NCBI GenBank assembly: GCA_023105745.1
Contig: JALGQZ010000011.1
Coordinates: 9,820,975 to 9,884,974, forward strand
DNA length: 64,000 nt
Direction of reading: 5' to 3'
DNA from: Austropuccinia psidii
Taxonomy: Eukaryota; Basidiomycota; Pucciniomycetes; Pucciniales; Sphaerophragmiaceae
Of the stretch, positions 24,821 to 57,433 are shown piece after piece. The notes under the pieces were generated by a model. It worked only from the letters and a program-made list of their open reading frames with translations, ran no database searches and was not told the DNA's origin. The number at the start of each line of letters is the position of its first letter. The stretch's first letter is position 1. Both the position numbers and the translations under genes were made by a program.

Positions 24821-27448
24821 ATGTCAGCCAAATCAAAATCAACTCAACCGAAATCGCAAGTAGAATTAAAGGACGAGAGTTTGCTTCAAGCTGTCCTTTT
24901 GGTCGATCCATTTGGCACACAACAATCTTGGGGTCCCCTAGTCAAGCAAGATGACGACGAGGATGAAGATGATGAAGATCGAAGTCGTAAATCCTTGCCT
25001 TGGGTATGCAGTTCCTCATTGCTACACGTCGAACTTGCTTAGATTCACACTGATTGAATCTATCCATTCTTGTAGTGTCTCTTGCCGCTTCTGGGCACAC
25101 CTTTGTTGCTTTGGACGTTGGATTCTTTAGCTTTGGGTGGTGTTCAACAAGTCTTCTTGTTTGTTCGCCATGACCTGGATAAAATTCAATCTTTCCTATC
25201 GTAAGAGTGTGAATTGTGACCAGCAGATTTATTTATTTACTTATTTTTTATTCAATTTGGCTGATTGGATCTTCAACTTCTTTGGTTCTCATTGAAATCA
25301 TCTTGTCATCTTATCTTCAAGAAAAACTATCTATCTTAATCCAGACTCTCCCATAAGCCTCACAATCATCCCCACGACCGCATTCACACCAGGTGACGTC
25401 CTAAGAGAGGTGGATTCAAGAGCATTATTAAAGACCAAGACTGGTGATGGATCTGATATCGGAACTTTCATCCTTGCGCGATGCGGTTATATTGGCAACT
25501 TGGACCTTATTAAAGCTTCTCAATCTTTCTCAGCCTGTCGAAAGTTACAAGCTGGATTGCCTTGTCTTTCCGCAATTATGAAATCTAAACCTGATCACAT
25601 CAGCTCATCAACTTCAACTACAGTTCATCTTCTTGACCAGTCTTCCAGGTTGCTTTGTCTGCATACCGATCAACGCAAATTCCCACAGTCTAAACAAATC
25701 CAAATTCCCATTCAACTCCTTCAACAACCTCAAGACCTCCTCTTGAGGGCTGACCTCGAATCAATCGGTATAGATCTTTGTAGTGTTGAAGTCCCTCAGC
25801 TCTTTACTGAAAACTTTGATTATCAAGACGTTCGACCTGATTTCATACATGGAATTTTAACGAGTGATCTGCTTGGAAAAACTATCCTTTGTGATATTGT
25901 CAATGAAACCAATAATCTTGGCTCGGGCGTCAATTGGGTAACCTCAGTTAGTGATGTGAAAAGTTATGACCGAGCCTCGTAAGCTTGATCCAGCCAGTCC
26001 TCTCTTATTAATCTAAATTCCCCGCATCTCTCACATTGTTTTATTGGGCGGGGTACCGCCTTTTAGAAGAGATATCATCGCCCGACGTGCTCAACCATTT
26101 GTTTTGGAACAGGCACGCTTAGGCGCTCCTCCTCCTTTAACGCAGCGCCGCGGAATGGTTTATATAGGCAAGGATGTTGACCTTGCACCGTAAGCTTCTC
26201 TGTCTTTCATCAAGTATTTTAGCCTAGTATTTTTTACGCGGCTTTCGACATTCTGCTGCAGAGATTGTACGATTGGTAACTCTACCTGTCTAAGTCCGGG
26301 TTGTACGATCTCTCATCATGCTTTGATTCGCCAATCATACATCGGATCATCCACCCAAGTCGAAAGTGATTCAGAGATCACAAACTCATATGTTTTTGAT
26401 CAAGTTTTGATCAACTCGAATACGAGAATCAGGAACTCCATCATTGGCTCTCATGTTCACATCCAATCTGATTGCCTAATTGAAGATGGCTGTTTAATAG
26501 GAAACGGGGTTGTGATTGGAAGAGGATCTCAACTTAGGGGCGTAAATGTTAGCTTGACTGGTCCAAATGGTTCATCAAAGTTGGAGGGACCGGACTCAGT
26601 AGGAGTAGTATGGCCAAATAGTGAAGATCCTACTAGTCACAGGATTCATGGTCAGGATAGCGATGAAAGCGAGAGTGAGGAGGAAAAGATTGATATCAGA
26701 AACGTAAAATATGCTCGCTTAGGTCAGTGACTCTTGCTTTAATCTTTGGTATTTTTTCCCTGCGGCTAAATCGTTTGCTTTCATGATACATAATGTCAAA
26801 ACACGAATAATAGGTACTACACGCCAGAATTCCTTCTTGGTCTCACCTTCTTCATCTACTACTTCCCTCTCATCACTTTCTTCCAACGCATCCTCATCTA
26901 TATCTACTCAAATTCAGAATATTTCGTTAATTGGGGAAATGGGCTCTACAAAAGACTTTTTTATTGAATGTGTTCGCTCTTTAGAACGTGCCTTCGAGGA
27001 GGACCATACAGTTGATAACGCTACCATTGAACTCAAAACACTGAGGATGGCTTCCAATGTAGCTCAATCTAAGGTCCGATCAGTAGTACTCAAGCAAGTT
27101 TGCCAACTTGTACACAAAAATCCTCACAAGCTGCAAAAATGGGGAAGACTTATTAGGAACCTATTGAGTGTAGAAGAAGACTTGCAAGAAATGCAAGATG
27201 TTTTATTAGATTTACAGGAGTGGTGTGCTGAAAACTTGCAAGAAGATAAGGCAAAATTCTTTTCGAAATTATTACAATATTTCTACAATGAAGACATTGT
27301 TGGCGAAGAGGGTATCATTAAATGGTTCAGAAGTGCGTTATCAAAGCAGGCAGGAGGAGCAGAAGGATTGAAATTAAGGGAGATAGGTGGGAAGTTTTTG
27401 CAAATGTTAATGGATGCAGAAGAAGAAAGTGATAGCGATGAGGAATAA
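24821..27448 (+). CDS. GCD6: Translation initiation factor eIF2B, epsilon subunit (catalytic GDP-GTP exchange subunit)
   Basis: Six exons: 24821-25003, 25076-25200, 25322-25978, 26067-26189, 26262-26722 and 26814-27448. Introns are 72, 121, 88, 72 and 91 bp, all GT-AG, and the joined frame is 727 codons plus stop. Order of domains: nucleotidyltransferase-like N-terminal domain (LLQAVLLVDPF, LLPLLGTPLLLWTLDSL, GDVLREVDSR, FILARCGYIGN, ENFDYQDVRPDF; residues about 20-320), a left-handed beta-helix with isoleucine-glycine hexapeptides (about 355-470), an acidic linker (DESESEEE, about 499-508), and a C-terminal W2/eIF5C domain (about 559-727) with the tail EEESDSDEE. The protein exchanges GDP for GTP on eIF2 in the cytosol. 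Length matches the yeast protein (712 aa). An acidic insert QDDDEDEDDEDR near residue 50 is unusual. The start at 24821 is the first ATG in frame. A possible AATAAA lies at 27512-27517. Confidence 0.95.
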
Positions 27449-29395: not shown

Positions 29396-31174
29396 TGTGA
29401 GAATTTGATATATGACCACATATCAAAAAAGGTCACAAAACAACTTTACAAAACTTATTTTTATAATAAGAATTGAAATTACAATCTTAAAATGAGTAAT
29501 AATGCCATAAAAAAGTCTAAATTCTTGATTATCTCATAAAACAATGAATAAAAATTTTAGAATAATTACACCATTTGATTATCAATCAAGAACTACATAT
29601 ATTACTCTCTTATGTCACATCTGTAAGCCCAATACTTACTGAGATAACCTGAATATATGAACTTTTATGATCAGTGCATATATTCATGGTTTTTAGCTCA
29701 TAAATTTTGAATTACACATTATAAGGTGTTTATTAAAAGACAAGGTTACCAAAAAAGAACTTGAATAATAAAGACATAAACCTCATTTGGCAAGCTATAA
29801 GCAAAGTTAAAGCTTATAAGGGGATGTTGGCCGAAATAGCAATAGCTGTTGACCGCTTTATATTAAAAGTGACCCAAACTTAAAAAAGTATATATCAAGA
29901 TTGTAAGAGTCTATATGTGAAAAATGGTTTAATTCAAATCATAATATTCAAGGTGAAACCCTATGAAATCATGGTCTGAAGTCCAAAATAGTAAATTTTG
30001 ACAGAAAAGACCAATTACAAGAAAAATCATCAAGAATAAAGTTTTGATTATGTAATTAAATACTCTTTAAATCTTAGTAAGAACATTCCAATCTATCAGA
30101 ATTAACTCTCTTGCTTTAGCACAAAAAAATCAAAAGTTATTAATGATCAAAGTTAAGGCTCAAAAGTGATCATTTATGATCAATAACTCTAATCTTATTT
30201 TAAGTTTAACAGTTGAATAAAAGATAAAACAGGTGGATATTAGTACTTTATTATTAAAAAATATTGTAATCCATAATACATGAAATTTAATGATTTTCCA
30301 AGCTTATGATTTCAGAAAATTAGAGCTATAGTGATAACTTTAAGAAATGGTGTAGCAATGAGATAAAAAGGTTTTATAATGATGTAGTCATCACCAAACC
30401 TTAAAATACTGATCAATTCCAGTGTATATCATCAGTAAAGACTTACTAGAGGGTACCTGGTCACTAGAAGGAAGGGTGTTTACTATAAAAGGAACCCTCC
30501 TTCCTCTATTTTTCCCTCAGACACTACAAATACAATGAAAGCATTAAATAAAAGGTAAATTTCTTTATTCTTTAATATAAAACTCTTATATTATTAAAGA
30601 AAAAAGCTTGATCTTATATTAGTAATTATTTTATGTTTGATTAAATTGATTTTTTATTGTAATTTGCTAAATTACCTAAAAACTCTATAAATACACATAA
30701 AAATAGTATAATTTGTAATTTTCTCTATTTTCTATTTGAAACAAAATTCAAATAAGTTTTATTCACATTATTAGGAACAAAATAATTCAAAATTATTATT
30801 TTGAGTTTTTAGAGTAGGTTATTTTCTTATTATTATTATTTTTAATAACTTTAATATTAATATAAATAGTATTTATATTAATCAATAACCTTGATATTAC
30901 TAATATTACTGTTATTAATTGATATTTATTATTAAATATCAATCATTTAGGCATTTATTAATTTCTAGTTAAATTAATAAATTGGAATAAATATCCTAAT
31001 TTACTATATTATATTATCATTTCTTAATAATATAATCACTTTACGCCATAACCATAATATATCTTTATTCTTATGATTATTTTTGACCTTATTATTTGTT
31101 AAATTAGGAAATCCAGAATACAATAAGTAAAATATTATTAATTTTTACTTATTTTTTCATAGTAAAGCTGTGCA
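29396..31174 (+). mobile_element. Solo LTR D, same family as the LTRs of element C
   Basis: 1.78 kb in plus orientation, starting TGTGAGAATTTGATATATGACC and ending CATAGTAAAGCTGTGCA. It aligns over its full length with the reverse complement of 19499-21300. The flanks are GTCAG (29391-29395) and GTTAG (31175-31179), a 5 bp target duplication with one C-to-T change. No internal region follows, so the element was reduced to one LTR by recombination. It keeps a TATA box at 30484-30490 and a splice donor AAAAG|GTAAAT at 30555. Confidence 0.88.
30484..30556 (+). promoter_or_regulatory. TATA box and downstream 5' splice site in solo LTR D
   Basis: TATAAAA at 30484-30490 is followed, after a pyrimidine-rich probable start-site region, by AAATAAAAGGTAAAT with the GT at 30555-30556. 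The same order is found in the 5' LTR of C and, with CAG|GTAAAG, in both LTRs of A. Confidence 0.6.
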
Positions 31175-36484: not shown

Positions 36485-38315
36485 TGTGAGCCTCAGAGGT
36501 ATTTTCATATACCCAAAAGACCACAAATGATAAATTAAGATACAAATATGAATAAAATACATTTATTTATATTATAAAAGTAAAAAAATTGAAATATAAA
36601 TACAAATTTATATGTAAAAATCAAAATTCAATTATCATTTAAAAATAAAATTAAAATAAAATCTAAAATTCTGAAAATACATTTTTACTTGTAAAAATTA
36701 AGTAAAAATGAATTTTTAATAGAAATTATGAAATTAAAATATTTTTGGTAAAAATTTATATAAGATATATTATAACTTTTTATCCAATAGATAAACATAA
36801 AGAAATTATTACACCATTAGATTCCTCATAAAAAATAAAGTGGGGTCACTTCTGGATAAAATTTCTGTAACTCAACTTTCAATAAGCTTAAATTAAGCTT
36901 TTAGTATTTTTTGTAAAGAAGTATGAAAATCCTCAAAGCCTTGATTTAATTCACACCACATTTGGTGTTAACCATCAATTTTTATGTTAAAATTGAGGTG
37001 TTGTGTTTAGTTTAGAAGCTATGAGGAACTGAAGTATTTTCAATTGAAATATCAAAATGTGCGTGTGTATTACATAAGTGAACTTTAATTTACATATGAG
37101 GTATCAATTATTACATATGTGTAATTAAAAACTCAATTGAACCACATATTTAAATTATAATTGTATTACATGATGAGGAATTAAAGAAAAAATAAATTGG
37201 AAAGATTAATTCTGGGGGGGGGGGGAAAGACACTCTAGCTCTAAGGGGGAGCTAGACCCTCAAAATCCTTGCTGACTGGTGTGGGATGTCAAAATCCACG
37301 CAAAAGCTCATTACTTTTGGCCTGGAATTGAGTCACAGGGTCTGTGACTCAATTGATGATGAGGTTTTGATACCAACCAGGGTAGGTTTAACTGCTTCCA
37401 AGAGGGTAAAACTACCCTTAAGCTATAGCAATGTTAGTAATAACAGTTTTAACTGGTTTCTACGCCTCTTACACACATTCTGACATGTTTTGAAGGCTCT
37501 AGACCAGGTATTGCTATAGTAATGGCTGATCTAAGGGTCTAAAATGGCTAAAAATAGCAAAAAATGGCTTGAACCAGCCCTTTTTTGGTCTAAACCAGGG
37601 TTCAATGATGCCATAATTGGCTTTTCTGTTGTAAAACTGTTTTTCACAGCTGAAAATAGTAAATTTTACCTTTGGAGTAAGAAAATTGATGGCTATAAAA
37701 GACTGTCTTCTTTGCCCCACTTTTCTCTTCATGTTAGAATCTTTTCCTTTTATAATTAGTGTAAACACTGTTAAACCAATCAATAAGATATTCCAACCAC
37801 CATTTTCAAATCATTGTAAACCTTCTAACCACGTGAAAAAATTATTATAATCATTGTTTGTAACTCTTATAATCATTTTAACCCTTGAAACACCCCAAAA
37901 GTGAATTAAAGCAGCTTTCATCACTGTTAGCTTTGTCACTTTGTTTCCAAACTCACTCTGGTCACTTTTGGGTGTGTTTTCTCTTTAAATATCTTTTTAA
38001 AGACTTTGTTCTTTAAGTAATTTCTTGAAGCTCTTTTCTCAATTAATTCCAATTGAAATTGCTCTTGAAGAAATTTCTTTTGTAGCCTTAAATATCTCTT
38101 GTAGAGTATTTTTGGATAAATCTTTATTGTTGGTAAAACAATAAATTTTTATTATATTATTGTTCTATACTTACAAAGTTAAAAACAATAAAATTGGACT
38201 GTTTTCTCTTAAAAATACTATTTCTTACTATTTTTAAATAATTTTACCTTATACAAATTTTGAGGACAGGAAAAGTACTTGATATTTTATCAAAGTTTCA
38301 TATCCACACCTTACA
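36485..38315 (+). repeat. 5' LTR of element B
   Basis: 1.83 kb direct repeat of 55625-57428, similar along its whole length. It contains a 12-G run at 37214-37225 (8 G in the partner) and a TATA box TATAAAA at 37694-37700. No splice donor as good as in A stands out downstream; TTTAA|GTAATT near 38019 and TTG|GTAAAA near 38132 are possibilities. Confidence 0.93.
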
Positions 38316-38534
38316 TTTGGGGGCCCTGCCATGATATTTTAACTGTGACATAATTTTTTACTTTTTTTTAATCTTTTTTCTTATATTGAAAAATTTAAAA
38401 AATATATAAAAAATACTTATAATTCAAAACAATCCTTAAAACATAATTCCTTTTTATAATCATAAGTGAGGCTTTATTTTTCCCTTTTGAAAAAACTTTT
38501 TTACTTAACTAATTGTTTTTTTCATTAATTTTAG

Positions 38535-39411
38535 TGTCTGACAACGTGGTAAGACAAGAAAATATTGAAACAGCCTCCACAGTTACTAGAATTATTCCTG
38601 CAAGCACTGTTATTATAACTCAGAATAACCAACAAGAGCCAATTTCTTCTGAATTGGTCAACTCGGATATCAGTAATACTCTTCAGAAAGCTAAAAATTT
38701 GGCAAATAGTAAGTTTTTGACGTAAAAGTACTATTTTAAACCTTTTTAATCATAAAATATTCCTTCAACCAGATCAGGAGCAAGCTATAAGCCCTCAAGA
38801 AGCTCTCAAAAAGGTCATAGACGTGATTATGGAAGAAGCCAATCAGATACAGAAGGACAAGGGTCAGTAAAATACTTCCACAACAATAAATTGTTCAATT
38901 CTGAAGCTGATGACACTATTTTACCTTCAAAAAGAGCTGACACCGCCACAAGAAGCCTTAGTGGACATTTACAAAGCCATCTAGAAGGCTTAAAACAATG
39001 CACTGCAGCAAAAAGAGTACCAGACCCTTGCAGATCTGTGGAAAAACTGCATGAACTCATACCTGACTGTAAGAAAATTCCTAGGTCATCCCACCACTTG
39101 CAAGTTACTCAATCTATGGCATCCATTGATGGAAAAGAAGAATATGATGCTTTTAACAGCATAATGGAGGAAAAACAACCCTCCACCACCAAAGCAAGTG
39201 CCAAGACCAGCCCCAGTGGCCAGCAGCAGAAATTCCAACATTAAAAAGCAGCCACAAGCTTAAAACAAGGGCAAAGGGAAGGCACCAGACCCAAAGCCTT
39301 ACAGCCAGGGCTACAGGATTCCAAAGATTCAGCAGGATTCCATTGAAAATGTATTTCAGATGGCCAGAACCATGATGGAATTACAGAAGAAGGAGGATTC
39401 CAGATAAAGAT
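38535..39411 (+). pseudogene. Element B ORF1 with two introns
   Basis: Inferred exons: 38535-38708, 38773-38862 and 38935-39411. The introns are 64 bp (GTAAGT...ACCAG) and 72 bp (GTCAGT...AAAAG), both in phase 1 like those of A, C and E. The first exon begins TG right after TTTTAG and encodes SDNVVRQENIETASTVTR. Exon 3 contains EALVDIYKAI, ALQQKEYQTLADLW and MNSYLTVRKFLG, aligned with the same region of A, then a proline/lysine-rich stretch and NVFQMARTMMELQKKEDSR before the stop. Damage: TAG and TAA soon after IYKAI, a TAA after MMLLTA, and a TAA after KKQPQA. The function is unknown; it is probably a structural protein. Confidence 0.75.
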
Positions 39412-39412
39412 T

Positions 39413-42400
39413 CCAGAAATGATTCCTGACATATTTGATTCCATCCCAGAGTTGTATGAAGCTATAAATGATGTGAAAAATCATCTTTCTAATAAAAATG
39501 AACCCATTTGTAACAATATTAAAACAAACAACTTGAGCGTGTGCCAAATTAATGAGACACTTATGTGTTTTAAAAAAGTTTTAAGAACAATTAAAGCTTC
39601 CAATAATGATAATTCTTTTGGAAATAAAATAAATGAACAATCTTCCATTATTAAAGAGTTAACAGACAAATATTCTAAATTCAATATTGATAACATAATT
39701 GAAAAAAGAATAAAACAAGCCATAAGTACTATCAAAGAGGATAATAAGAAATCTCTTGATAATATTTCAAAATCATTTAATGAAGTAAAGACACATATAA
39801 TTGCCTTGAAAAAGTGTTTTGATACCTCAAAAGAGGAAATATCAATAAAGTTAAATGAGGTTATCTCTGATAATGCTAAACAAACAGAATTATGGAATGA
39901 GCTGACAAATAAAGAGGATGATCATAAAACGAATGTGATTAACTCTATACAAAGCTTGCAACATGAATCAAGAAATTCACAAAGGTGTAACAATAGTAAA
40001 ATGAATGATATTGAGCAACTACTAAACACCTTACCAAGAATGTCTACACCTCTGAATCAAAATGAGGGTACAGGGATTCCCAATCCACAAGTATTGGATA
40101 TGGAAAATTCACTGTTAAAAAATGAATTTTCTAATTCTTTTCATAGCTTGGAACCATCAATGGGCCAAGAACTCTTGAAAGAAGTTCCAAAAATTAAAGA
40201 ATGGCCTCACTTCAGTGGTGAAGGAGGATATGACCATATGGAATTCATCAGGGGTATTGACATGATAAAAGAAGATTTTGAATTACCAGACAGATTAGTA
40301 ACAGCTAGATTTAACACCTTGTTTACCAAATTAGCTCACAGATGGTATATCAAATTGAGACAAGCACATGGACACCAAAGTTGGACTTGGTGGAAACCCC
40401 AAATTATAAACAAATGGGCCAATGATGCTTTGAGGTTTGGGGTCAAGACAGCCTTTTAATCTGCAAAATTCAATGCTTATAAAGACAAAGATTTACCATG
40501 GTTTTGCCAACAAAAAGACAGACTAACAGAATTATACCCTGACATGTCAGAATTTATGATCCACAGAAAGATTCTGAGACAATGTGGAGGTGACTTAGAG
40601 CATGCTTCCAAAAGCAGGACTACTGAACAATCTTCAGCAGAGGATATTATCAATATATTAGAAGAAGTAACCACCAGAACCAAAATTGGTTCTAGTAGGG
40701 TGAATCTCAAAACAAGGATTAATACACCTTGGAAAGATTCTGTGGACAAAAACCCCAAAGAAGCTTCTAATAATGTTAATTATAAATCCTCAGATACAGT
40801 CAGAAATTGCCATTTTTGCCAAAGAACCACACATTTAGCCGAATATATGTCCAAAAAGGGGGGAAATCAATGAAATTGATATTGAAAAGGAACCTGATGT
40901 TGAAAAAGATGACATAATTGAAGACAATTCAGATGATAAGTCATCAATATTTTCTGAATCTTCAAACGATATAGAAAATATCAATGCCACTTTTGACATC
41001 ATGGAATCTTATTCCCACTTGCCACAATTGAGAAATGGTCAACTTGATTTATCAAAAGTTCAAGATGCACAACTTATAAAAACCAAACCAAACAGGGGGA
41101 AAGGTTATACAGCTGGTAACTCCTGTATAACAGAAGTGGTGATTGAAACAAGCCCACTAAATGTTTTCTTGACCCAGGAGCCTTCTGCTCTTGTGTTGGT
41201 AAATCTTTTCTTAAAAATTGTGTACCAAATTTTGAAGACCAATTATTACCAATTGATGGTATAAAATTCATTAGTGCAAGTAATACAATACAAGCATTAG
41301 GAACTTTTGAGACCAATGTCATATTCCCACACATTAATGGGAATTTAAGAATCACAGTTTAATTTTTTGTTATGGAAAACTGCTCTAGTACCCATCTTAT
41401 ATTGGGAAATGACTATTTAATCATGTATGGGATAGATTTGCATAACAACAAAGACAGATAATTTACTATTGGAGACAATAAGCATTAGAAATTTGCCTTT
41501 TTACCATTTAAAAGACAAATTACAGTAAATAAAGTATCACCAGTCAACTTAGAATTGGAAAAATTCAAATGTGAACAGTTGAAGGAGGCTGAAATAAGCC
41601 TTCATCTGACTGATGAACAAGAAAATGAACTTTCTTCCCTTTTTTATGACCACAAAGAAGCATTTTCTTCAGAAAAAGAACCTCTAGGAGCAATTATTGG
41701 TCATGAAGTTGACATCATTCTTAATATTGAGAGACCTTATCCACCACTCTTGAGAAGACCTGCATACCCAGCAAGTCCCAAGTCAAGAGAAGCTCTGGAA
41801 ACTCATATCAAAGAACTTCTAGACCCTGGTGTAATAGGAAATGCTGGCCATAATGAAGAGGTAGAAATAATCACACCAGTCATAGTGGCATGGCATAATC
41901 CAAAATCAAGAATGGTTGGAGACTTTAAAGCTCTGAACAGTTACACTGTTCCAGATAGGTATCCAATACCAAAAATACAAATTTCCCTTACTCAAATATC
42001 TCAATCACTGTATATAGCCACTATGGATTCCCTTGAAGGATTCCATCAAAATTTGGTGACACCAAGAGCAAGAAAATATTTGATAATTATTGTTCATTGT
42101 GGAGTGTATGAATATTTAAGAATGCCCTTTGGTGTCAAAAATGCACCTTCACACTTCCAAAGAATGATGAATGAAATCTTGCCTGAAGAACTTTCAGAGG
42201 GATGGTTAATCATTTACATTGATGACATTATTGTCTGTTCCAAGACATAGGAAGAGCACATGGACAGACTGTCCAGAGCTTTGACAAAAATTCAATCAGT
42301 GAACATGAAAATCTCTTTGAAGAAATGTCATTTTGGATTTAAAGAACTTAAAGCACTAGGTCATGTTGTATCTGGTTTGTCCCTTGGAATTGAAAAAAAC

Positions 42401-42577
42401 AAGTTGCAGCAGTATTGCTAAAACCCATGCCTCAGAACAAAAAGGAAATTCAGTCATTTTTGGGTTTTGCAGGATATTACAGGCAACACATTAAATATTT
42501 TGCATCCAAAGCAAGACCACTTTATAAATTGTGTGACAAAGATACAGTATTTGAAATGACTGTTGACAGAGTCAAAG
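39413..42577 (+). pseudogene. Element B ORF2, first part: gag, protease and most of RT
   Basis: The frame follows ORF1 in the -1 register. Gag has a lysine-rich coiled N-terminal part and a capsid domain with WPHFSGEGGYDHMEF (40202-40246). A TAA stop lies at 40457-40459, and the capsid tail resumes to about 40860. The zinc knuckle CHFCQRTTHLAEY loses its last cysteine through a frameshift near 40850. The protease motif can be read as LDPGAFCSCV only after a missing base near 41170. RT (41555-42250) contains [27 protein letters not shown] and YIDDI. A TAG follows at 42248-42250, where A has tryptophan. The RT connection region then runs to the insertion of element A at 42577. Confidence 0.9.
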
Positions 42578-44724
42578 TGTGAGCCTGTGAGGTATGTATA
42601 CCATACCCATAAGGCCACAAATGATTTTATAAACAGTTAATTTTGTCTTAAACAGACTTTTTAGCAGAAATTAAAATAAAAAATAACAAAAAATAAGTAT
42701 AACTTTTTTTTGGATAAACAAAGTTATAAATATTATGTCATTTTTGGACTCTACACCAAAAATGACCTAGGGTACATCCATAAGGTGTCATACCCAAAAA
42801 CACTTATTTCTTGTGTTATTAGAAGATTTAAGAATCTCACAGTACTAATGTAACTTTTTTAACATTTTTTTAAAATTGTTAAATTTAAGCTTAAATAAGC
42901 TTAAATTTAAAGTTGCATAAGGTTAATGCAAACTTACCAAAATTTTAGTTAAAATTGAGGTGTGTTGTATATTTACTGAATTGGCTAAGGATTTGCCATA
43001 CAGAATGTAAATCCTGCGTGAGCTCAATTTAAAAGGGTTTAAAGCCATGGTATGGCTTTAAATAAATAAAAGGGCAAAATCCACGCAAAAAGGTGGGACA
43101 AAGGAAAAAGACCAAATAGAGCTGGGGCACCCAACTTTTTGGATCTGAAATGATTCAATTAAGGTTGTCCACCTGTATTGGAGGATTTTCAACCTTATTT
43201 AAACTTTATGATTAGACTTTGATCCAACCTTAAGGTTTAAACTGGTTTTATCCCAATTTGGACAGGAATTTCAAGCTGCCAAAGGGTAAATCCCAATATG
43301 CAGGCTTGAAATCAAGGTTATAAGAGCTGTCAAAGCTTAATAAAGCTTAAAAATTTAAAGTTACAAGCATCAAAACCTTATCAAAAGCTAAGGTTTGGTG
43401 TGTATTGCTATTTTACGTGGAAAAATAGCAATAACTTCAAAAATTCATCAAAAATCCAAATCTTAATGGATTTGCTTGAAAATTTCACACAGCTTAGAAT
43501 TTAATATTATCTATATATGAATTATATTTTAAGTATCTTTTATAAATAAATTTCCTTGGTAATTAGCCTGGTAATTTACTCTTTTAATTAAGCTCAAAGA
43601 AAATTATGATTTCTTTAAAAATTAATTTAAAATTGAGTTTAAGAGATTTCTGCTTGAATCTCCATTTTTAAGTTGTTCATGTGATGAACTTTAATATAAA
43701 TAAGTTTATTTATATTAAAAACTTAAAATAATCAGTTTAAATAAGGATTAAAGTTACATGGAGTTAAGGATAACACTGGTAACTTTAAATTGGAATTAAA
43801 AACAAGTTTCCTTAAGTTAAGAACTTTGTTTTTAAGTATGGTTTTTCAGTTTTGACCTGAGCACGCCCTCTATATTCATTCTGAATCATGAGAGCTGCTC
43901 TGAAGACATAAAAAGAGTCTTTTCATCACTGTTTTTGTCCATCATTCATCATCAATCCAATCATATTAGAAATTTAAACAGGTAAAGTTTTATTATTTAT
44001 AAAATCTTATTATTAAAGTAATTCTTAAGTTATTTTATTCTTTATTAATTATAAATTAAAGAATTGAAGTCATAGAATTCAGATTATTGTTGTAATAATC
44101 AATAATATATTTTATATTATAAAATTATCATCTTAAATAACTTTTAAAATCCACAAATTCCTCTTAAAAACTCTTTAATCTTAAATTTTATCATAAAAAG
44201 TTGTTTTATTCTTAAAATTTTTGATTTTAGGCATGTCTTTAACTTATAATCATTATTTAATATAATAACTGTTGTTGTTTAACTTGTTGCATTAAATAAA
44301 TGTTATAAGTAAGTTTTCCCTAAAGTTCTATATTTTTTTTATCTAGTATTAGTTTATACAGAATTTTATTCTATAAGAATTATTTCTGCACAGTGTGTGT
44401 TATAATTCTTTTATAAATAATATTCATATTATTTATAAGTGGTTAATATTTATATTTCCACGTGTAATTGTCTCATTAAGAGCTTTACAAGTCTTATTGT
44501 TATAACTGTCAGTGACTATAGCAACAATATAATAATTATAATTTATTATAATTATTATATTTTTATAATAATAATTAAATTAATTTTTTTATATAATTAT
44601 TTCTAATAATTATATTTAAATTTGTGGTTATAATATTTTATTATATTATATATTTCTATTGACGACAGTAATAGTACTCTTGATTTTGATACTATTATCA
44701 AGAGTTTCATAGACAAACCTTACA
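42578..44724 (+). repeat. 5' LTR of element A
   Basis: 2.15 kb; only scattered differences from the partner at 51334-53498. The TATA position reads CATAAAAAG (43908-43916), whereas the 3' LTR keeps TATAAAAAG. Downstream is AAATTTAAACAG|GTAAAG with the GT at 43983-43984, a near-consensus fungal 5' splice site. Confidence 0.96.
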
Positions 44725-45262
44725 TTTGAGGGCCTGTCCGTGATTTTAAACCAATTTTTGGGACATAAATCATATTCTAGACCTTATTTTACTGTTTTTG
44801 ACGTAAATTGCCATATTTATCTTAATATTGGCTTTTTTGGGACTTATCCCTTATAAATAATCTTTATAATATTAATAAAGTTATTTTTTTCTTAAGAATA
44901 TTGTTTGAAACAATATACTATTGAGTGACTTGGAATAAATTTCTTTTGTCTAACTAGTGGCTTTTTCACATCACAGACTTGAAATTTATTATTTGAGTTA
45001 TTCTAGTATAAAGTGAATAATAATACAATTTTGATTAATTAACTTTTTAATTGCATAATTATTTTTTTTTCAAAGAAAATAATAAATCAAATAAAAAATC
45101 TTTACTAAAAAAAACATTTTTTTCTTTTTATCATAGACATTTTTTCTTTATTTTTGATGTAATTTGCCATAAATTACATTAAAACAACTTTATTTAATAA
45201 GTTGAGTTTATAAGTTATTTTTATTATTTGATAAAATAACTTATATTTTTAATTTTCTCTAG
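43983..45262 (+). other. Predicted leader intron of element A spanning LTR end and primer-binding site
   Basis: The predicted donor is CAG|GTAAAG inside the LTR and the acceptor is TTTTCTCTAG|TG at 45261-45262. Removal would delete 1280 bases, including the end of the LTR and the primer-binding site. The acceptor is shared with element E (TTCTCTAG|TG) and has counterparts in B (TTTTAG|TG) and C (TTTTTTAG|TG). Splicing is inferred from sequence only. Confidence 0.5.
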
Positions 45263-46208
45263 TGTCTTCCATCAGAGAAAATTCTCCAGACTCTGAAACC
45301 TCAGAGACCAGTATTGAAATTCAAACCAGCCCACCACCAAAGGGTTTGATAACCAAAGAGCCCTTTAAAGGTCCTTCAGGTGAATTCAATTCAATTTTAC
45401 TCTATTTTTTATTAAAATTGACGTGAAATGACTCCTACTAGAAGTGGAAGTAATTACTCCATCCAATCAAATGGATCTGGACCAGGACATTCCAGCCACA
45501 AATCCAAAAGGCAAGAATGTCTTCCCAGGGGAGAGGCACAAATGGAGGATTCCAGAACTTCCACCAGTTCCCAAAGGTTAGCTAGCACCTTTGAACCTCT
45601 TATTGAGAGTCCAGAAGCTGACATAACTGCTATTGCTGTTAGACCTGAACCATTTCCAACAAGCAGCCGTAGAGATTTATCAATCTCAATGGAAGAACTG
45701 GTTCTTGGCGTCAAAACAACAAGAGTGGGAACTTCTCCCAAGTCTTTGGATAGGCACCATGAACTCTTATCTTCAAGTGAAGAAGTTCATGGGACCAGAA
45801 AAGACAGAAGACCTTCTGATGGGTTGTACACCCATGTCTGTCAAAGGGCAAGTCCAACAGATAAAAGCTTGGTTGAAAAACCAAAGCATGTTATCAGAGG
45901 ATCAGAAGAAGAAGTTGGCCCAAGGCAAGGAAACCAGCCCAGTGGAAGCTCCGCAAGCATCCACCAGCAAAAATCCGCCGCAACAAGTGCCAAACAAGCC
46001 CAAGCAAGCCCCCAAAACCAACCAGAAGGGAAAGCAAAAGGAAAAGGGAAAGGCAAAGCCCAAGTGGAACAAGCCTTAACCTCAGAACTACAGAATCCCA
46101 AAGAAGGAAAAGACAGCCATGGATAATGTATTCAATATGGCAAGAACCTTGATGGAATTCAAAAACAAGGAGGAGGAAAGATTGAATCAATATTTCCCAA
46201 AGAAATAG
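45263..46208 (+). pseudogene. Element A ORF1 with two introns (one nonsense codon)
   Basis: Inferred exons: 45263-45379, 45442-45576 and 45643-46208, with introns of 62 bp (GTGAAT...ACTAG) and 66 bp (GTTAGC...GTTAG), both phase 1. Removing them gives one frame from the TG after the leader acceptor to the TAG at 46206-46208, broken only by a TAA at 46077-46079 (E has TAT there). Landmarks: SSIRENSPDSETSETSIE, EVEVITPSNQMDLDQD, the helical block AAVEIYQSQWKNWFLASKQQ, MNSYLQVKKFMGPEKTEDLL, a basic proline/lysine/glutamine-rich tail, and [12 protein letters not shown]. No ATG starts the first exon; the first in-frame ATG is at MDLDQD. The start may be completed by the leader exon or be non-AUG. 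It is likely a nucleic-acid-binding structural protein; the family is unrecognised. Confidence 0.75.
46193..46199 (+). promoter_or_regulatory. Candidate -1 ribosomal frameshift heptamer, T TTC CCA
   Basis: In ORF1 frame the codons read TAT TTC CCA AAG AAA TAG. The heptamer TTTCCCA fits the X XXY YYZ pattern, and slipping back one base gives TTT CCC AAA GAA, the start of the ORF2 frame, just before the ORF1 stop. The same 13 bases TTTCCCAAAGAAA occur in element C (minus, 18110-18122) despite differing LTRs. No structural pseudoknot was modelled. Confidence 0.5.
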
Positions 46209-49200
46209 ATCTTGTAAAACTTGTAGCTCACTTTGAATCTTGTAATAAAGAAATTATGGCAAAATTTAAAGCATTTGATTATGTCCGACAGAAGTTGGGT
46301 AATGAGATATTAAAAGTGAAAGAACAACAAAAGACTATTATTGGCCTTGAAAATGTTAATAAAGAAAATATTGTGTCTTTGACGCAAATTTTTGAAAGAC
46401 TTGAGTCTAAAGTTACCTTACTCAATCAACCAGATGAGAACTCAATTTCTTTTATAACTGGACAGTTAAGAGAATTGAAAATACAAGTTCAAAACTTGGA
46501 AAATTCTACTGGTCACAATGCAGCTCTTTTTCAAGAACAATTGGAAAAAAGTGATAAATCAAGAATTGAATTGAAAGAAGACATTCAATCAAGTATTAAT
46601 AATATATCACTAAAAAATGAATTGCCAAGGCAATCCACACCAATTCTTGACAGAAATGTTCTTAACTTGAATAATGATTTAAATCATACAATTTCAAGTC
46701 ATGATGTGGAAACTGCTTGCAATTTTAAGGACATTCCAAGATTAGAGGAATGGCCAACCTTCAGTGGTGAAGGAGAATATAATCATATGGAATTTATGAA
46801 AACAATTGATATGTTCAGAGAAGACTTTAACATACCAGATGAATACATAAGTGCCAGATTACACTCATTATTTACCGAATCAGCAAAGAAATGGTATTAT
46901 AAAATGAGACAAGACCATGGTAAACATTCTTGGCCTTGGTGGAAAGAACAAATTATTTCCAAATGGGCAAATGATTCCTGGAGATTTAGAATGGAAAATT
47001 ATTTTGAAGAAGCCATTTTTAATATTGAGAGGGACAGGCCCATGACTTGGTTTCTTAAACAGAAGGACAGGTTAACTGCCCTTCATCCTGATATGTCTGA
47101 AACAATGGTACATAAAAGGATATTAAGAAAATGTGGTGGTGACCTTGAGCATGCTATAAGAAGCAGATGTATTGAGCCTTGCTCTACAGAAGATTATATC
47201 AATGCTATGGAGGACATCACTACTAGAACAAAACTTGGAAGAAATTGGTCCAAAACCCCAATAGACAACAAGACTAATGGGAAACCAATTTCAAAACCAA
47301 ATAAACCACATGACAGACCTCCTTTGAAATGTCATAAATGTGGAAGCATATCTCATTTTGCAAACACTTGTCCAAAAAAGGCAAGAGTCAATGAAATAAA
47401 TTTTGAAAAAGTGGAAGACACAAAAGAAACTGATGTATCTTTACATGAAAGTGATTCTGAGCCTTCAGAAGAAGAAGAAGTATCAGAAGAACTTGGTATA
47501 GAGAACATTAATGTCTCTTTTGAGGTCACTGAGGTACATACTCACTTACCACAGTACAGTGATGAATTTATGGATCTCATACATGTGCAAGACGCCAAAA
47601 TGCAAAAAACCAAACCTGCCAGAGGTAAAGGTTATACAGCTGGGTCATCTTGTATCACTAATATTGTGTTAAATAACACAGAATCCAAGATACATCTTGA
47701 CTCAGATGCTTTTTGCACTTGTGTTAGAAAAGATTATCTTGACAAAATTTATACCAATTGGCAAGACAGATTAATGCCAATTGAAGGTATAACATTCAGC
47801 AGTGCTAGCCAAAATATGCACCCCTTGGGTATATTTGAAGCAGCAATCATATTTCCTCATACTGCAGGAAGTATAAGACTGAAAGTTGAAATTGTTGTTA
47901 TGAATAATTGTACTTCACAACACTTTATACTTGGGAATGATTATCTCAATATTTATGGTATTGATATTAATAATCATAAAGACAGGTATTTCACTATAGG
48001 GGCGAATAAAACACAAAAATTTGCTTTTCCTCTAGAAAAAAGAGAAATTACTGTCATTAAACAAGTAAAAAATGTTAATAAGGAAAAATTTGTGTCAAGT
48101 CAATTAATTGAAGCACAAATTAGTCCTGAGTTAACACTGGAAATGAAGGAAGAGCTTATTGAAATTTTATTTCAATACAGGGAAGCCTTTGCCTCAGATA
48201 ATGAACCACTTGGAGATATAAAAGGCCATGAGGTGGAAATTATGCTTAATGTGGAAAGGCCTTATCCGCCACTATTAAGAAGACCAGCTTACCCAGCTAG
48301 CCCTAGGGCTAGAGAAGCATTAGAAAATCATATTAATAAACTAATGAAACTGGGAGTTCTTAGAAAAGTCAGACACAATGAGGAGGGAGAAGTCACAACC
48401 CCAGTAATCATTATGTGTCATAATGATAAGTCAAGGATGGTTGGTGATTTTAGAGCACTGAATACCTATACTATCCCAGACAGGTATCCAATCCCTAGAA
48501 TTCATGAGACTTTGACTCAATTATCCAAAGAAAGATTCATTACTTCCATGGATGCTCTAAAAGGCTTTCACCAGAATGTTTTGACACCTCATGCTAGAAA
48601 AGTATTGAGAATAATTGCTCATTGTGGTATTTATGAATATTTAAGGATGCCTTTTGGTATTAAAAATGCACCCTTTCATTACCAAAGAATGATGAATACT
48701 ATCTTCCCACATAAATTATCAGAGGGATGGTTAATAATTTATATTGATGACATTATCATTTGTTCAGAAACCTGGCAATTACATTTAGAGAGACTATCAT
48801 TAGTACTTAAGAAAATTCTACAAGTGAACATGAAAATTTCTTTTAAAAAATGTAATTTTGGGTTTCATGAGTTAAAAGCTCTAGGACATGTAGTCTCAGG
48901 ACTAAGCCTTGGTGTTGATAAGAACAAAGTGGCTGCAGTTTTACTGAAACAGATGCCCCAGAACAAAAAAGATATGATGTCTTTCTTAGGGTTTTCCAGT
49001 TATTACAGGCATCACCTTAAAGATTTTGAAATCCATGCCAGATCATTATACAGAATTTGTGATCAACAAACTGTTTTTGAAATGACTCAGGAGAGAATTC
49101 AAGCATATGATAAAATCAAGTATGCCTTGACCAATGCACCATTATTACTGATGCCAGACTGGAAACTTCCTTTCAAGCTGTATATTGATTCATGTGGTGA

Positions 49201-51196
49201 AGGTCTAGGAGCTGCTCTTCATCAAGTTCAAATTGTCAATGACAAGCCTTATGAAGGTCCAATTTGTTTTATTTCAATATAAATTAAACCTACTGAGGCC
49301 AGATATGGATCTAGCCAAATGGAGTTCCTTTGCCTTGTTTGGGCTCTGGAAAAACTTCATTACTATCTTGATGGTAGTGTGTTTGAAGTAATTACTGATT
49401 GTAACACAGTAAAGTCACTTCTTAACATGAAAACTCCAAACAGACACATGTTAAGATGGCAGATTGCTCTACAGCAGTATAGAGGCAATATGACCATAGT
49501 ACATAAAGCTGGAAATATTCACAAGAATGCTGATGGCTTAAGTAGATGGGCATTACCCAATACACCTGAAAATCCTTCCTATGTTCCTACAAGTGCAGAA
49601 CCTCAAATCCCAATTGAAGTAATTAACATCACATATGTGGGAACAGAATTCTTTGAGGAAGTTAGAGAAAGCTATAAGCAAGATAAAAATCACCATATAC
49701 CTACTGCTCTACTTGACAAAGATTGCAAAGATGCAGCATTGGCTAATTCTCTGGATGATATTTGGAAAACATCTTATGATAATGGAGGATTCCATTTGTT
49801 TGATGGTATACTATATCATAGATCCAAGCACACATGTGTCATGGTCCTATGTAGTAGAATGTTGATTAACACAATACTACTAGAATTCCATGATAACATT
49901 TATTCTGGACATCTGTCTGAAGACAGAACAATGGAAATAATTAAGACATGCGCCTGGTGGCCATCTTGGAGAAAAGATGTCATTGAGTACTGTAATAGTT
50001 TTGATAGATGCCAGAAAGCCAATAAAGCTACTGGTAAAAGATTTGGTCTGATGATCCATATCCAAGAACCAAGTACCCCATGGGAAGTGGTTCACATGGA
50101 TTGGGTAACTGCATTACCACCTGGAGGTGATAAAATTTACAATGCATGTCTTGTTATTGTAGACAGATATAGCAAAACACCAATCTTTTTACCATGTCAC
50201 AAAGATGACACAGCTATGGATACAGCTCTTTTAATCTGGAATAGAGTAATATACCATACTGGTCTCTTTAAAAACATCATTAGTGACAGAGACCCAAAAT
50301 TTACATCAGCCTTATAGACTAATTTACATAAGATTTTTGGTACAAAATTATCATTCTCAACAGCATACCATCCACAAACAGATGGATTAGCAGAAAGAAT
50401 GATTCAAACCCTTGAGGACATGATCAGAAGATTTTGTGCTTATGGCCTGGAGTTGAAAGATTATGATAGCTTTACCCATGATTGGTGTACTCTTATACCA
50501 GCATTGGAATTAGCCTACAAGACCTCCATTCATGCTTCAACAGGCAAGACCCCCGCAATGTTGGAAAAAGGATGGAACCCCAAACTTCCAATTGATACTT
50601 TGAAGAAAGATCTGGTTGACATTCATCCAACTGCTTCAATCTTTGAGCTATTGCTTGATAAAGTGAGACATCATGCAAATCAAAGCATGAATGATGCCTT
50701 TGAATATGCTAAGCAGAAATGGGATAAAAGTCATAAAACCCCCGAATTCAAAGTAGGGGACTTGATACTAGTTTCAACCTTGAACTTTAATAATATTAAA
50801 GGTCCAAAGAAATTGAAAGATTCCTTTGAAGGACCATTTATTATTAAAGCCCTTCATGGGACAAATGCAGTACAAGTAGAACTTTCAGGAGAACTGGAAA
50901 ATAAACATCCAACATTCCCTGTCAGCCTAGTAAAGCATTACACTTCAAGTGACAAGGAATTATTTCCTTTAAGAAATGAAACACTCTTAGAAGTACCCCC
51001 ACTAGATCTAAGTGAGGAGAAAAAGGTACTAAAAGTCTTGAAAGAAAGAAGACTTAGGGGAAAAAATGAAAGAGAATACTTAGTCAGGTATAAAAATCCA
51101 CAACATGAAGATGAGTGGATTGTAGAAAGCAAAATACCTGATTCCCAAAGGTTTCTCAGAAGATTCAGACATGAGAGAAGACCAATTGCTCAATAA
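46196..51196 (+). pseudogene. Element A ORF2: gag-protease-RT-RNase H-integrase-chromodomain (two nonsense codons)
   Basis: Taking ATG 46256 as residue 1: coiled N-terminal gag, capsid with [15 protein letters not shown] (about 164-178), zinc knuckle [14 protein letters not shown] (about 359-372), protease [10 protein letters not shown] (about 480) with aspartate where D-(S/T/P)-G is expected, RT with [23 protein letters not shown] and YIDDI (about 827), and RNase H starting [11 protein letters not shown] (about 973). A TAA at 49280-49282 replaces the CAA seen in B. The frame continues with the [10 protein letters not shown] and NADGLSRW segments, then integrase with [33 protein letters not shown] and DGLAERM (the D, D and E of the active site). 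A TAG at 50315-50317 replaces tryptophan. The end is a chromodomain (REYLVRYKNP, EDEWIVESKIP). One integrase zinc cysteine is phenylalanine (CNSFDRC; B has CKTCGRC). Confidence 0.93.
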
Positions 51197-51333
51197 AAAG
51201 CTTGAATTGTGTGCTTTACATACTTAAAAGTATAAGTAGAGAGGTTGGACAGTGGATTATACCCCCCCCAAATAACTTGGGGGTAAACTACAAAGGAAAA
51301 ATTGTGGTACAATTTTTTTTTGGTGGTAGGGAA

Positions 51334-53498
51334 TGTGAGCCTGTGAGGTATGTATAACATACCCATAAGGCCACAAATGATTTTATAAACAGTTAATTTT
51401 TTCTTAAACAGACTTTTTAGTTGAACTTAAAATAAAAAATAACAAAAAATAAGTATAACTTTTTTTTGGATAAACAAAGTTATAAATATTATGTCATTTT
51501 TGGACTCTACACCAAAAATGACCTAGGGTACATCCATAAGGTGTCATACCCAAAAACACTTATTTCTTGTGTTATTAGAAGATTTAAGAATCTCACAGTA
51601 CTAATGTAACTTTTTTAACATTTTTTTAAAATTGTTAAATTTAAGCTTAAATAAGCTTAAATTTAAAGTTGCATAAGGTTAATGCAAACTTACCAAAATT
51701 TTAGTTAAAATTGAGGTGTGGTGTATATCTACTGAATTGGCTAAAGATTTGCCATACAGAATGTAAATCCTGCGTGAGCTCAATTTAGAAGGGTTTAAAG
51801 CCATGGTGTGGCTTTAAATAAATAAAAGGGCAAAATCCATGCAAAAAGGTGGGACAAAGGAAAAAGACCAAATAGAGCTGGGGTACCCAACTTTTTGGAT
51901 CTGCAATGATTCAATTAAGGTTTTCCACCTGTATTGGAGGATTTTCAACCTTATTTAAACTTTAAGATTAGACTTTGATCCAACCTTAAGGTTTAAACTG
52001 GTTTTATCCCAATTTGGACAGGAATTTCAAGCTGCCAAAGGGTAAATCCCAATATGCAGGGTTGAAATCAAGGTTTTAAGAACTGTCAAAGCTTAATCAA
52101 GCTTAAAGCTTTAAAGTTACAAGCATCAAAACCTTATCAAAAGCTAAGGTTTGGTGTGTATTGCTATTTTACGTGGAAAAATAGCAATAACTTCAAAAAT
52201 TCATTAAAAATCCAAATCTTAATGGATTTGCTTGAAAGTTTCACACAGCTTATTATTTAATATTATCTATATATAAATTAGATTTTAAGTATCTTTTATA
52301 AATAAATTTCCTGGGTAATTAGCCTTGAAATTTACTCTTTTAATTATGCTCAAAGAAAATTATGATTTCTTTAAAAATTAATTAAAAATTGAGTTTAAGA
52401 GATTTCTGCTTGAAACTCTATTTTTAAGTTGTGCATGTTATGAACTTTAATATAAATAAGTTTATTTATATTAAAAACTTAAAGTAATTAGTCTAAATAA
52501 GGATTAAAGTTACATGGAGTTAAGAATAACACTGGTAACTTTAAATTGGAATTAAAAACAAGTTGCCTTAAGCTAAGAACTTTGTTTTTAAGTATGGTTT
52601 TTCAGTTTTGACCTGCAAAAGCCCTCTATATTCATTATGAATCATGAGAGCTGCTCTGAAGATATAAAAAGAGTCTTTTCATCACTGTTTTTGTCCATCA
52701 TTCATCATCAATCCAATCATATTAGAAATTTAAACAGGTAAAGGTTTATTATTTATAAAATCTTATTATTAAAGTAATTCTTAAGTTATTTTATTCTTTA
52801 TTAATTATAAATTAAAGAATTGAAGTCATAGAATTCAGATTATTGTTGTAATAATCAATAATATATTTTATATTATAAAATTATCATCTTAAATATCTTT
52901 TAAAATCCACAAATTCCTCTTGAAAACCCTTTAATCTTAAATTTTATCATAGAAAGTTGTTTTATTCTTAAAATTATTGATTTTAGGCGTTTCTTTAACT
53001 TATAATCATTATTTAATATAATAACTGTTGTTGTTTAACTTGTTGTATTAAGTAAATATTATAAGTAAGTTTTCCCTAAAGTTCTATATTTTTTTATCTA
53101 GTATTAGTTTTTTTATATAGAACTTTATTCTATAAGAATTATTTCTGCATAGTGTGTGTTATAATTCTTTTACAAATAATATTCATATTACTTATAAGTG
53201 GTTAATATATATATTTCCACGTGTAATTGTCTCATTAAGAGCTTTACAAGTCTTATTGTTATAACTGTCAGTGACTATAACACTAATAGAATAATTATAA
53301 TTTATTTTTATTATTATTTTTTTTATTATTATATTTTTATAATAATAATTAAATTTATTTTTTTATATAATTATCTTTAATAATTATATTTGAATTTGTG
53401 GTTATAATATTTTATTATATTATATATTTCTATTGAGGACAGTAATAGTACTCTTGATTTTGATACTATTATCAAGAGTTTCATAGAAAAACCTTACA
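51334..53498 (+). repeat. 3' LTR of element A
   Basis: 2.17 kb direct repeat of 42578-44724 with few differences. It keeps TATAAAA at 52663-52669 and the splice donor AAACAG|GTAAAG with GT at 52738-52739. Inserted A/T bases near 53290-53340 account for most of the length difference. Confidence 0.96.
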
Positions 53499-55624: not shown

Positions 55625-57428
55625 TGTGAGCCTTAGAGGTATTTTCATATACCCAAAAGACCACAAATGATAAATTAAGATACAAATATAAATAAAATAC
55701 ATTTATTTATATTTTAAAAATAAAGAAATTGAAACATAAATACAAATTTATATTTAAAAATAAAATTTAATTATAATTTAAAAATAAAATTACAATAAAA
55801 TCTAAAATTATGAAAATACATTTTTACTTGTAAAAATTAAGTAAAAATGAATTTTTAATAGAAATTATGAAATTAAAATATTTTTGGTAAAAAGTTATAT
55901 AAAATATATTATAGCTTTTTATCAAATAAATAAACATAAAGAAATCATCACACCATTGGATTACTCATAAAAAAATAAAGTGGGGTCACTTCTGGATAAA
56001 ATTTCTGTAGCTCAACTCTAAATAAGCTTAAATTAAGTTTTTAGTATTTTTGTACAAAAGTATGAAAGTCTTCAAAACCTTAATTTAATTCACACCACAT
56101 GTGGTGTTAACCATCAATTTTTATGTTAAAATTGAGGTGTTGTGTTCAGTTTAGAAGCTATGAGGAATTGAAGTATTTTCAACTGAAATGTCAAAATGTG
56201 CGCGTGTATTACATAAGTGAGCTTTGATTTACATATGAGGTATCAATTATTACAGATGTGTAATTAGAAACTCGATTGAATTAAATATGTAAATTATAAT
56301 TGTATTACATGATGAGGAATTAAAGAAAAAATAAATTGGAAAGATTAATTCTGGGGGGGGAAAGACACTCTAGCTCTAAGGGGGAGCTAGACCCTCAAAA
56401 TCCTTGCTGACTGGTGTGGGATTTCAGAATCCACGCAAAAGTTCATTACTTTTGGCCTGGAATTGAGTCACAGGGTCTATGACTCAATTGATGATGAGGT
56501 TTTGATACCAACCAGGGTAGGTTTAACTGCTTCCAAGAGGGTAAAACTACCCTTAAGCTATAGCAATGTTAGTAGAAACAGTTTTAACTGGTCTCTACGC
56601 CTCTTACACACATTCTGACGTGTTTTGAAGGCTCTAGACCAGGTATTGCTATAGTAATGGCTGATCTAAGGGTCTAAAATGGCTTAAACCAGCCCTTTTT
56701 TGGTCTAAACCAGGGTTCAATGATGCCATAATTGGCTTTTCTGTTGTCAAACTGTTTTTCACGACTGACAAGATTAAATTTTACCTTTTGAGTAAGAAAA
56801 TTGATGGCTATAAAAGAATGTCTTCTTCGCCCCACTTTTCTCTTCATGTTAGAATCTTTTCCTTTTATAATTAGTTTAAACACTGTTAAACCAATCAATA
56901 AAATATTCCAACCACCCTTTTTGAATAATTTAAATCCTTTAACCATGTGAAGAATAATTATAATCATTGTTTGTAACTCTTTTAATCATTTTACCCCTTG
57001 AACCACCGCAAAAGTGAATTAAAGCATCTTTCATCACTGTTAACTTTGTCACTTTATTTCCAAATTCACTCTGGTCACTTTTTGGCCTGTTTTCTCTTTA
57101 AATATCCTTTTGAGGACTTTGTTCTTTAATTAATTGCTTTCAGTTCTTTGCTCAATTAATTCCAATTGAAATTTCTCTTGAAGAAATCTCTTTTGTAGCC
57201 TTAAATATCTCTTGTAGATTATTTTTGGATAAATCTTTATTGTTGGTAAAACAATAAATTTTTATTATATTATTGTTTTATACTTACAAAGTTAAGAAAA
57301 ATTAAATTGGTGTGTTTTCTCTTAAAAATACTATTTCTTACTATTTTTAAATAATTTTACCTTATACAAATTTTGAGGACAGGAAAAGTACTTGATATTT
57401 TATCAAAGTTTCATTTCCACACATTACA
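55625..57428 (+). repeat. 3' LTR of element B
   Basis: 1.80 kb partner of 36485-38315, with TATAAAA at 56809-56815 and an 8-G run at 56353-56360. It ends CATTACA next to the target duplication TATCT. The two B LTRs show more differences than the two A LTRs, in agreement with B being older. Confidence 0.94.
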
Positions 57429-57433
57429 TATCT

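Follow-up and report, generated by a model that had tools for sequence, protein, structure and literature searches.

Predicted introns in four retrotransposons

The window analysed here is a 64,000-nucleotide (nt) stretch of the genome of the rust fungus Austropuccinia psidii (contig JALGQZ010000011.1 of assembly GCA_023105745.1, positions 9,820,975 to 9,884,974, forward strand). The assembly comprises 1.015 Gb in 84 contigs, and the published genome size is 1.02 Gb (PMC8063080). Within the window lie four Ty3/gypsy long terminal repeat (LTR) retrotransposons, designated A, B, C and E. A is nested in B on the plus strand, C and E are on the minus strand, and E is truncated at the window start. 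A preliminary description had proposed that the first open reading frame (ORF1) of each element is interrupted by two short introns. We distinguish two reading frames in this region: f1, the unspliced frame that belongs to Gag, and f2, the frame that results from joining three exons across the predicted introns. The features concerned are as follows.

42578–53498, plus strand: element A, nested in B (window self-comparison; reverse transcriptase (RT), RNase H and integrase domains)
44977–45005, plus: possible exon 0 of A in the 5′ leader, ending in A before GT (suggested by a shared leader block)
45263–45379, plus: A exon 1 of f2, beginning with TG after AG (putative split start codon A/TG)
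45380–45441, plus: A intron 1, GT-AG, 62 nt, containing the Gag ATG
45442–45576, plus: A exon 2, open in f1 and f2 (putative part of f2)
45577–45642, plus: A intron 2, GT-AG, 66 nt, open in f1 only
45643–46079, plus: A exon 3 of f2, overlapping f1, with its stop at 46077–46079
45428–46126, plus: A frame f1, N-terminal Gag, from the ATG to the in-frame stop of this copy
36485–42577, plus: element B, left part (LTR pair; the right part resumes after A)
38466–38534, plus: B intron 0, GTGAGG...TTTTAG, which would create A/TG (family copies)
38535–38708, plus: B exon 1 of f2
38709–38772, plus: B intron 1, 64 nt
38773–38862, plus: B exon 2
38863–38934, plus: B intron 2, donor GTCAGT, 72 nt, open in f1
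38935–39407, plus: B exon 3 of f2, with four internal stops in the window copy
18882–19025, minus: C exon 1 of f2
18790–18881, minus: C intron 1, 92 nt, with the Gag ATG at 18800–18798
18658–18789, minus: C exon 2
18592–18657, minus: C intron 2, GC-AG, 66 nt
18107–18591, minus: C exon 3 of f2
1003–1119, minus: E exon 1 of f2
941–1002, minus: E intron 1, 62 nt
806–940, minus: E exon 2
737–805, minus: E intron 2, GA-AG, 69 nt
174–736, minus: E exon 3 region, f2 broken in the window copy

All eight intron coordinates of the preliminary description proved exact, and each intron interrupts the joined frame in phase 1, as it had stated. Six of the eight introns have GT-AG ends, the others being intron 2 of C and of E, and in all four elements exon 1 begins with TG directly after an AG. 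The joined proteins of A and E share the residues EVEV.TPSNQMDLDQ, a V/I-D/E-IY block is common to all four elements, and the stops that would block the frame of A and E do fall within intron 2. The three exons join in one frame in every element, as had been claimed, but this frame is fully open only in A; it contains four internal stops in B and five in C, and in E it breaks shortly past the VEIYQ block. A second AG lies 5 nt past the acceptor of intron 1 in B (38773–38777) and C (18789–18785), and A lacks it; use of this alternative acceptor would join exon 1 to the Gag frame.

To look beyond the window, 30 C-family loci and 28 B-family copies were studied, all from this single species and taken from among the best matches to a query inside ORF1 rather than at random. 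Initial candidate lists for two families ran to 6778 and 6128 places, 40 of each being scored. Stop counts and variation refer to 28 of the 30 C loci (L009 and L012 excluded), and the A lineage is represented by the comparison of A with E. Both introns are kept in 30/30 C loci and 28/28 B copies, the query itself having contained them. Intron 2 is 66 nt long in all 30 C loci and 72 nt in all 28 B copies, and its length is divisible by three in A, B, C and E (66–72 nt). The lengths of intron 1 and of a putative further intron in the leader (intron 0, see below) vary among copies.

Two overlapping reading frames

In A, f1 starts at the ATG at 45428 within intron 1, crosses exon 2, intron 2 and exon 3, and shares its frame with the Gag-Pol ORF at 46256–49282, from which it is separated in the window copy by a stop at 46124–46126. 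The Gag ATG begins 14 nt (A and B) or 11 nt (C) before intron 1 ends, so that splicing out intron 1 would delete the Gag start. This ATG is present in 30/30 C loci; in 9/30, f1 meets no stop before the fetched DNA runs out, a length of at least 733 codons (measured in the 27 loci with the exact start word). In 21/28 B copies the ATG is in frame, with no stop between it and the splice site; the window copy of B has ATT at 38759–38761, where most B copies have the ATG. That the intervening segments are simply non-coding, as the preliminary description had assumed, is thus not supported: intron 1 holds the Gag start, and intron 2 is open in f1, and in f1 only, in all four elements. Coding in intron 2, which had been named as grounds for rejecting the introns, leaves splicing unrefuted because it occurs in a different frame.

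Stop codons are distributed accordingly between the frames. Summed over the 28 C copies, f1, f2 and the third frame contain 1, 0 and 56 stops in exon 2, 1, 82 and 112 in intron 2, and 6, 4 and 279 in exon 3. The corresponding counts for the 28 B copies are 2, 0 and 86, 1, 27 and 113, and 12, 43 and 219 (exon 3 counted over its first 330 nt), and those for A are 0, 0 and 1, 0, 2 and 5, and 1, 2 and 10. The openness of f1 in exon 3 exceeds what f2 imposes on it. When f2 was rewritten there with random synonymous codons (2000 resamples each for 13 copies with intact f2 in this exon: A, 6 of 22 C and 6 of 10 B copies), 9.5–15.8 stops were expected in f1, against none in 12 of the 13 copies and one in the other, and 0/2000 resamples had as few as observed. 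A stricter permutation of codons gives means of 3.2–6.1 f1 stops, with P from 0/2000 to 0.07. For exon 2, f1 predicts only 0 to 0.9 stops in f2 (A, 27/28 C and 26/28 B copies, those with an f1 stop omitted).

Substitutions in exon 3 carry the mark of f2. Between families (15 pairs drawn from A and three copies each of C and B, amounting to three family pairs), f2 third positions differ at 0.56–0.67 and second positions at 0.29–0.38, and amino acid identity is 0.36–0.51 in f2, 0.21–0.32 in f1 and 0.22–0.32 in the third frame. Between A and E, exon 3 differs at 61/187 third, 37/187 first and 22/189 second positions of f2, the last being the third positions of f1; beyond the overlap, f1 third positions differ at 21/57 (p = 4e-5). 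In the C family, f1 third positions are variable at 19/206 sites in exons 2 and 3 and at 52/134 past the f2 stop (p = 9e-11), first positions at 31/162 in exon 3 and 37/134 beyond (p = 0.10), and second positions at 20/161 and 32/134, a pattern little altered when CpG sites are left out. Suppression of f1 silent sites in exon 3 is hence confined to the f2 overlap, both in the C family and between A and E; in the B family, with its old copies, the within-family phase signal is weak. Intron 2 differs between A and E at 7/66 positions plus a 3-nt gap, and the part of intron 1 before the ATG at 18/48 (p = 0.001). Taken together, f2 appears to be the conserved protein of exon 3, and f1 appears to be kept open more than kept alike. 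This bears out the conserved joined protein of the preliminary description, clearly so in exon 3.

The overlap also reaches into the splice donors. At donor 2, intron bases 2–4 form a Gag codon, and GTAAG would there read TAA and GTGAG would read TGA. The unusual second donors fit this, since either consensus would insert a stop codon into Gag: A has GTTAGC (codon TTA), most B copies have GTCAGT (codon TCA; GT in 28/28, one being GTAAGT), and C has GCAAGT (codon CAA), with GC in 29/30 loci, C itself included. Donor 1 lies outside f1: A has GTGAAT there, most B copies have GTAAGT and most C loci GTGAGC, C itself having GTGAGA. The GC and GA donors had been put down to decay. For C this is ruled out by its presence in 29/30 loci, and the overlapping Gag codon would account for it; the GA donor of E, a single copy, may indeed be decay. 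The f1 residues EAD in intron 2 (A 45614–45622, B 38903–38912) coincide with a CTGAC/CTGAT motif, which we take to resemble a branch point, and the same bases may serve both Gag and branching.

Putative start and protein product of the spliced frame

The open stretch before exon 1 lacks an in-frame ATG in A, E, 27/30 C loci and 27/28 B copies. A third intron, intron 0, probably builds a split start codon, A/TG, for f2. The signs of it are strongest in the B family, where a leader intron (69 nt in B itself) would end at the AG preceding exon 1; the donor context AGT is found in 27/28 copies and the acceptor AG in 24/28. The A/E and C families have leaders that are AT-rich and otherwise dissimilar, with one block in common (44945–45016 in A; 19345–19275 in C), preceded by acceptor-like CAG or TTAG and followed by CTA/GT in the few copies compared, although C itself has T for A. 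A donor after this CTA would likewise yield A/TG in the A and C families, and the block is perhaps an exon 0 or a packaging signal. Some partial gene models of A. psidii MF-1 start exactly at the first complete codon following the TG.

The f2 product would be a basic protein of about 230–255 residues with a lysine-rich tail; that of A, exon 2 included, has 229 residues and an isoelectric point (pI) of 9.45, its last 80 residues having a pI of 10.3. Sequence searches of Pfam, PHROGs and PDB placed f2 in no known family, weak matches below the cut-offs being discarded. Two AlphaFold models (mean pLDDT 56.1 and 55.8) place helices at about residues 39–129 and 194–219, so that the middle of the protein may be helical, at low model confidence. 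One source gives the name 'No apical meristem-associated' to six MF-1 models of f2 (P0243, P0263, P0280, P0294, P0302 and P0357); Pfam finds no No-apical-meristem domain in the five so-named models scanned.

Splicing as a probable choice between two proteins

We consider it probable (roughly three in four) that overlapping frames give each element two proteins and that splicing selects which is made. Unspliced RNA would keep intron 1 with the Gag start and intron 2 with Gag coding sequence, thereby giving Gag-Pol, and would also be the genome, that is, the packaged template copied into DNA. Spliced RNA would lose the Gag start, gain A/TG through removal of intron 0 and yield f2 as an accessory protein. 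The introns would survive reverse transcription because the unspliced RNA is the one copied, and an intron-less RNA would lack a Gag start. Partial splicing, which the preliminary description had proposed, is supported in this form; its single, interrupted ORF1 gives way to two overlapping genes. Since the length of exon 2 is divisible by three in A, B and C and the introns on either side are in phase 1, f2 would stay in frame with exon 2 kept or skipped. The accessory protein could regulate the element as Rev or Rex do: produced early, from RNA freed of all its introns, it would bind the intron-containing RNA of its element through the lysine-rich tail, favour export or block splicing, and thereby switch the element to Gag-Pol and genome. 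This role is suggested solely by the basic tail and the need to use intron-containing RNA, and we regard it as a doubtful, though conceivable, extension.

Several observations weigh against the two-protein reading, which is drawn from the DNA sequence of one species. The amino acids of f1 in exon 3 are no better kept between families than those of the control frame, so f1 may matter there only as an open frame. The query by which the C copies were chosen reaches only to about the f2 stop, a choice that reduces variation within it, and what this family suggests rests on the phase pattern rather than on the level of variation; in its intron 2, f1 third positions vary at 4/22, no clear excess over exons 2 and 3 (p = 0.25). 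Exon 2 gives no independent coding signal for f2 in the A–E and between-family comparisons. Between A and E its f1 positions 1, 2 and 3 differ at 4, 5 and 10 of 45 sites, and identity leans to f1 (0.80, against 0.68 in f2); A and C lean slightly to f2 (0.47, against 0.41), and B and C to f1 (0.30, against 0.21), the B comparisons being short and mixed. With next to no f2 stops expected in exon 2 from f1 alone, openness of f2 there says little and was dropped as support. In exon 1 the phase pattern of the C family is weak (9, 2 and 10 of 50 sites variable at f2 positions 1, 2 and 3; second versus third, p = 0.03); between A and E, 11, 8 and 16 of 39 differ. An in-frame ATG does precede exon 1 in three of 30 C loci (C included) and one of 28 B copies, where intron 0 is not the sole route to a start.

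Annotated gene models are divided. From three lists of protein relatives (289, 758 and 521), 120 each were examined, and all 360 come from A. psidii MF-1. In favour of the two-protein reading, 119 of the 120 listed f1 proteins cross intron 2, and of the 120 listed B-type f2 proteins, 33 span junction 1, 38 junction 2 and 18 both; for the 120 A-type proteins the numbers are 6, 30 and just one, the last a further point against joining all three exons. Being predictions, these models are no proof of splicing.

The ambiguity of exon 2 invites the reading that it is skipped and belongs to Gag only, a single longer intron joining exon 1 to exon 3. Its lengths of 135, 90 and 132 nt in A, B and C, all multiples of three, and its lack of f2-specific constraint fit such skipping, yet donor- and acceptor-like sites flank it in three families and the models spanning junction 1 connect it to exon 1, which makes skipping improbable. 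Ordinary non-coding introns in a single ORF1, partly spliced and with f1 running through intron 2 incidentally, would agree with the exon/intron boundaries and with the greater conservation of f2 between families in exon 3. We think this very unlikely, given that f1 stops are nearly absent from exon 3 in three families where many are expected, that f1 continues into Gag-Pol, and that intron 2 keeps a length divisible by three and is the less changed of the two introns.

Gag might conversely be the sole product of an unspliced region, with f2 a leftover or chance open frame. Splicing is, after all, predicted from sequence here, the differences between A and E in exon 2 fit f1, and 119 of the 120 listed f1 gene models read through intron 2. 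Against this stand the between-family changes of exon 3, which fall on f2 third positions and leave f2 more alike than either other frame, the end of f1 silent-site suppression at about the f2 stop, and the f2 phase pattern of the C family in exon 1, outside f1 (2/50 versus 10/50); the proposal has little prospect of being right. Ribosomal frameshifting or internal initiation could reach f2 without splicing, and many listed A-type f2 models do take the first ATG of exon 2 as their start. Translation would then be halted between exons 2 and 3 by the f2 stops of intron 2 (82 across the 28 C copies), the stretch before exon 1 is mostly without ATG, and splice signals sit at the boundaries, all of which renders this route highly improbable.

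Genomic setting and related systems

The remaining parts of the elements show the Ty3/gypsy domain order RT, RNase H, integrase, as seen with Pfam in pieces of A and B.

42578–44724, plus strand: A 5′ LTR (self-comparison)
51334–53498, plus: A 3′ LTR (self-comparison)
46256–49282, plus: A Gag-Pol ORF in frame f1, with a zinc knuckle below cut-off, RT and the start of RNase H (Pfam)
49319–50317, plus: A end of RNase H and integrase (Pfam)
50399–51196, plus: A Tf2-1-like SH3, chromodomain match below cut-off (Pfam)
36485–38316, plus: B 5′ LTR
55625–57429: B 3′ LTR copy (LTR pair)

In the window self-comparison, the LTR pairs are 95.5% (A), 92.6% (B) and 78% (C) alike. Zinc-knuckle matches in A stay below the Pfam cut-off, and the Pfam scan of its ORFs turned up no env domain, no search aimed at env having been made. 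A conserved stretch is seen after the LTR, and a further LTR copy at 29396–31166 is about 74% like those of C. Among the retrotransposons, a GC-richer island (39–42%) at 24800–27448 holds the host gene for the translation initiation factor eIF2B epsilon; several short introns of about 70–90 nt, judged by eye, interrupt it, one beginning GTCAGT, so that the size and donor of the element introns look host-like.

In complex retroviruses, the major splice donor precedes the Gag AUG, and here, similarly, the Gag start codon falls within an intron of the predicted spliced RNA. Complex retroviruses (with Rev, Rex, Tax or Rem) use unspliced RNA as Gag-Pol message and genome and multiply spliced RNA for accessory proteins (PMC12789967). 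The present elements are unlike them in being fungal Ty3/gypsy elements, in having an accessory frame that overlaps the start of gag, in the small size of introns 1 and 2 (62–92 nt in the window copies), and in the lack of an env domain in the Pfam scan of the ORFs of A.

The intron of Ogre, a plant Ty3/gypsy element, lies between coding regions farther downstream, the protease and RT regions, and we know of no overlapping frame that runs through it; the introns described here differ from Ogre, so defined, in lying at the start of gag. Spliced Ogre transcripts are cited in PMC3735527, which also treats BARE1, a barley Copia element with a small alternative intron whose spliced and unspliced RNAs differ in coding role, and Drosophila copia, in which alternative splicing separates Gag from Gag-Pol RNA. 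In BARE1, as described there, splicing adds a stop and favours Gag, whereas here it would remove the Gag start and open another frame; copia splices out about 2950 nt of pol, unlike the short introns 1 and 2. Plant LTR elements carry extra ORFs beside gag-pol, some expressed via spliced RNA (PMC7264820); the ORFs described there are env-like ones in sense and others in antisense, on the 3′ side, and the one here lies inside gag. No earlier description of the arrangement was found in the literature searched, most subscription papers lying outside its scope. In the available portions of rust genome papers, 'intron' and 'gag' are absent from the main text, and one other paper mentions introns only for host genes and for COXI.

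Should RNA bear this out, a very abundant class of fungal retrotransposons would splice much as retroviruses do and conceal a gene within gag, and a Rev/Rex-like role of f2, if true, would mean that a fungal Ty3/gypsy element switches its splicing in the manner of a retrovirus. The arrangement would account for the persistence of introns in an element that moves through RNA and would provide a natural example of a splice donor shaped by an overlapping codon. Annotations that call one frame only would overlook a protein, and the contest between element and host could act at the splicing step.

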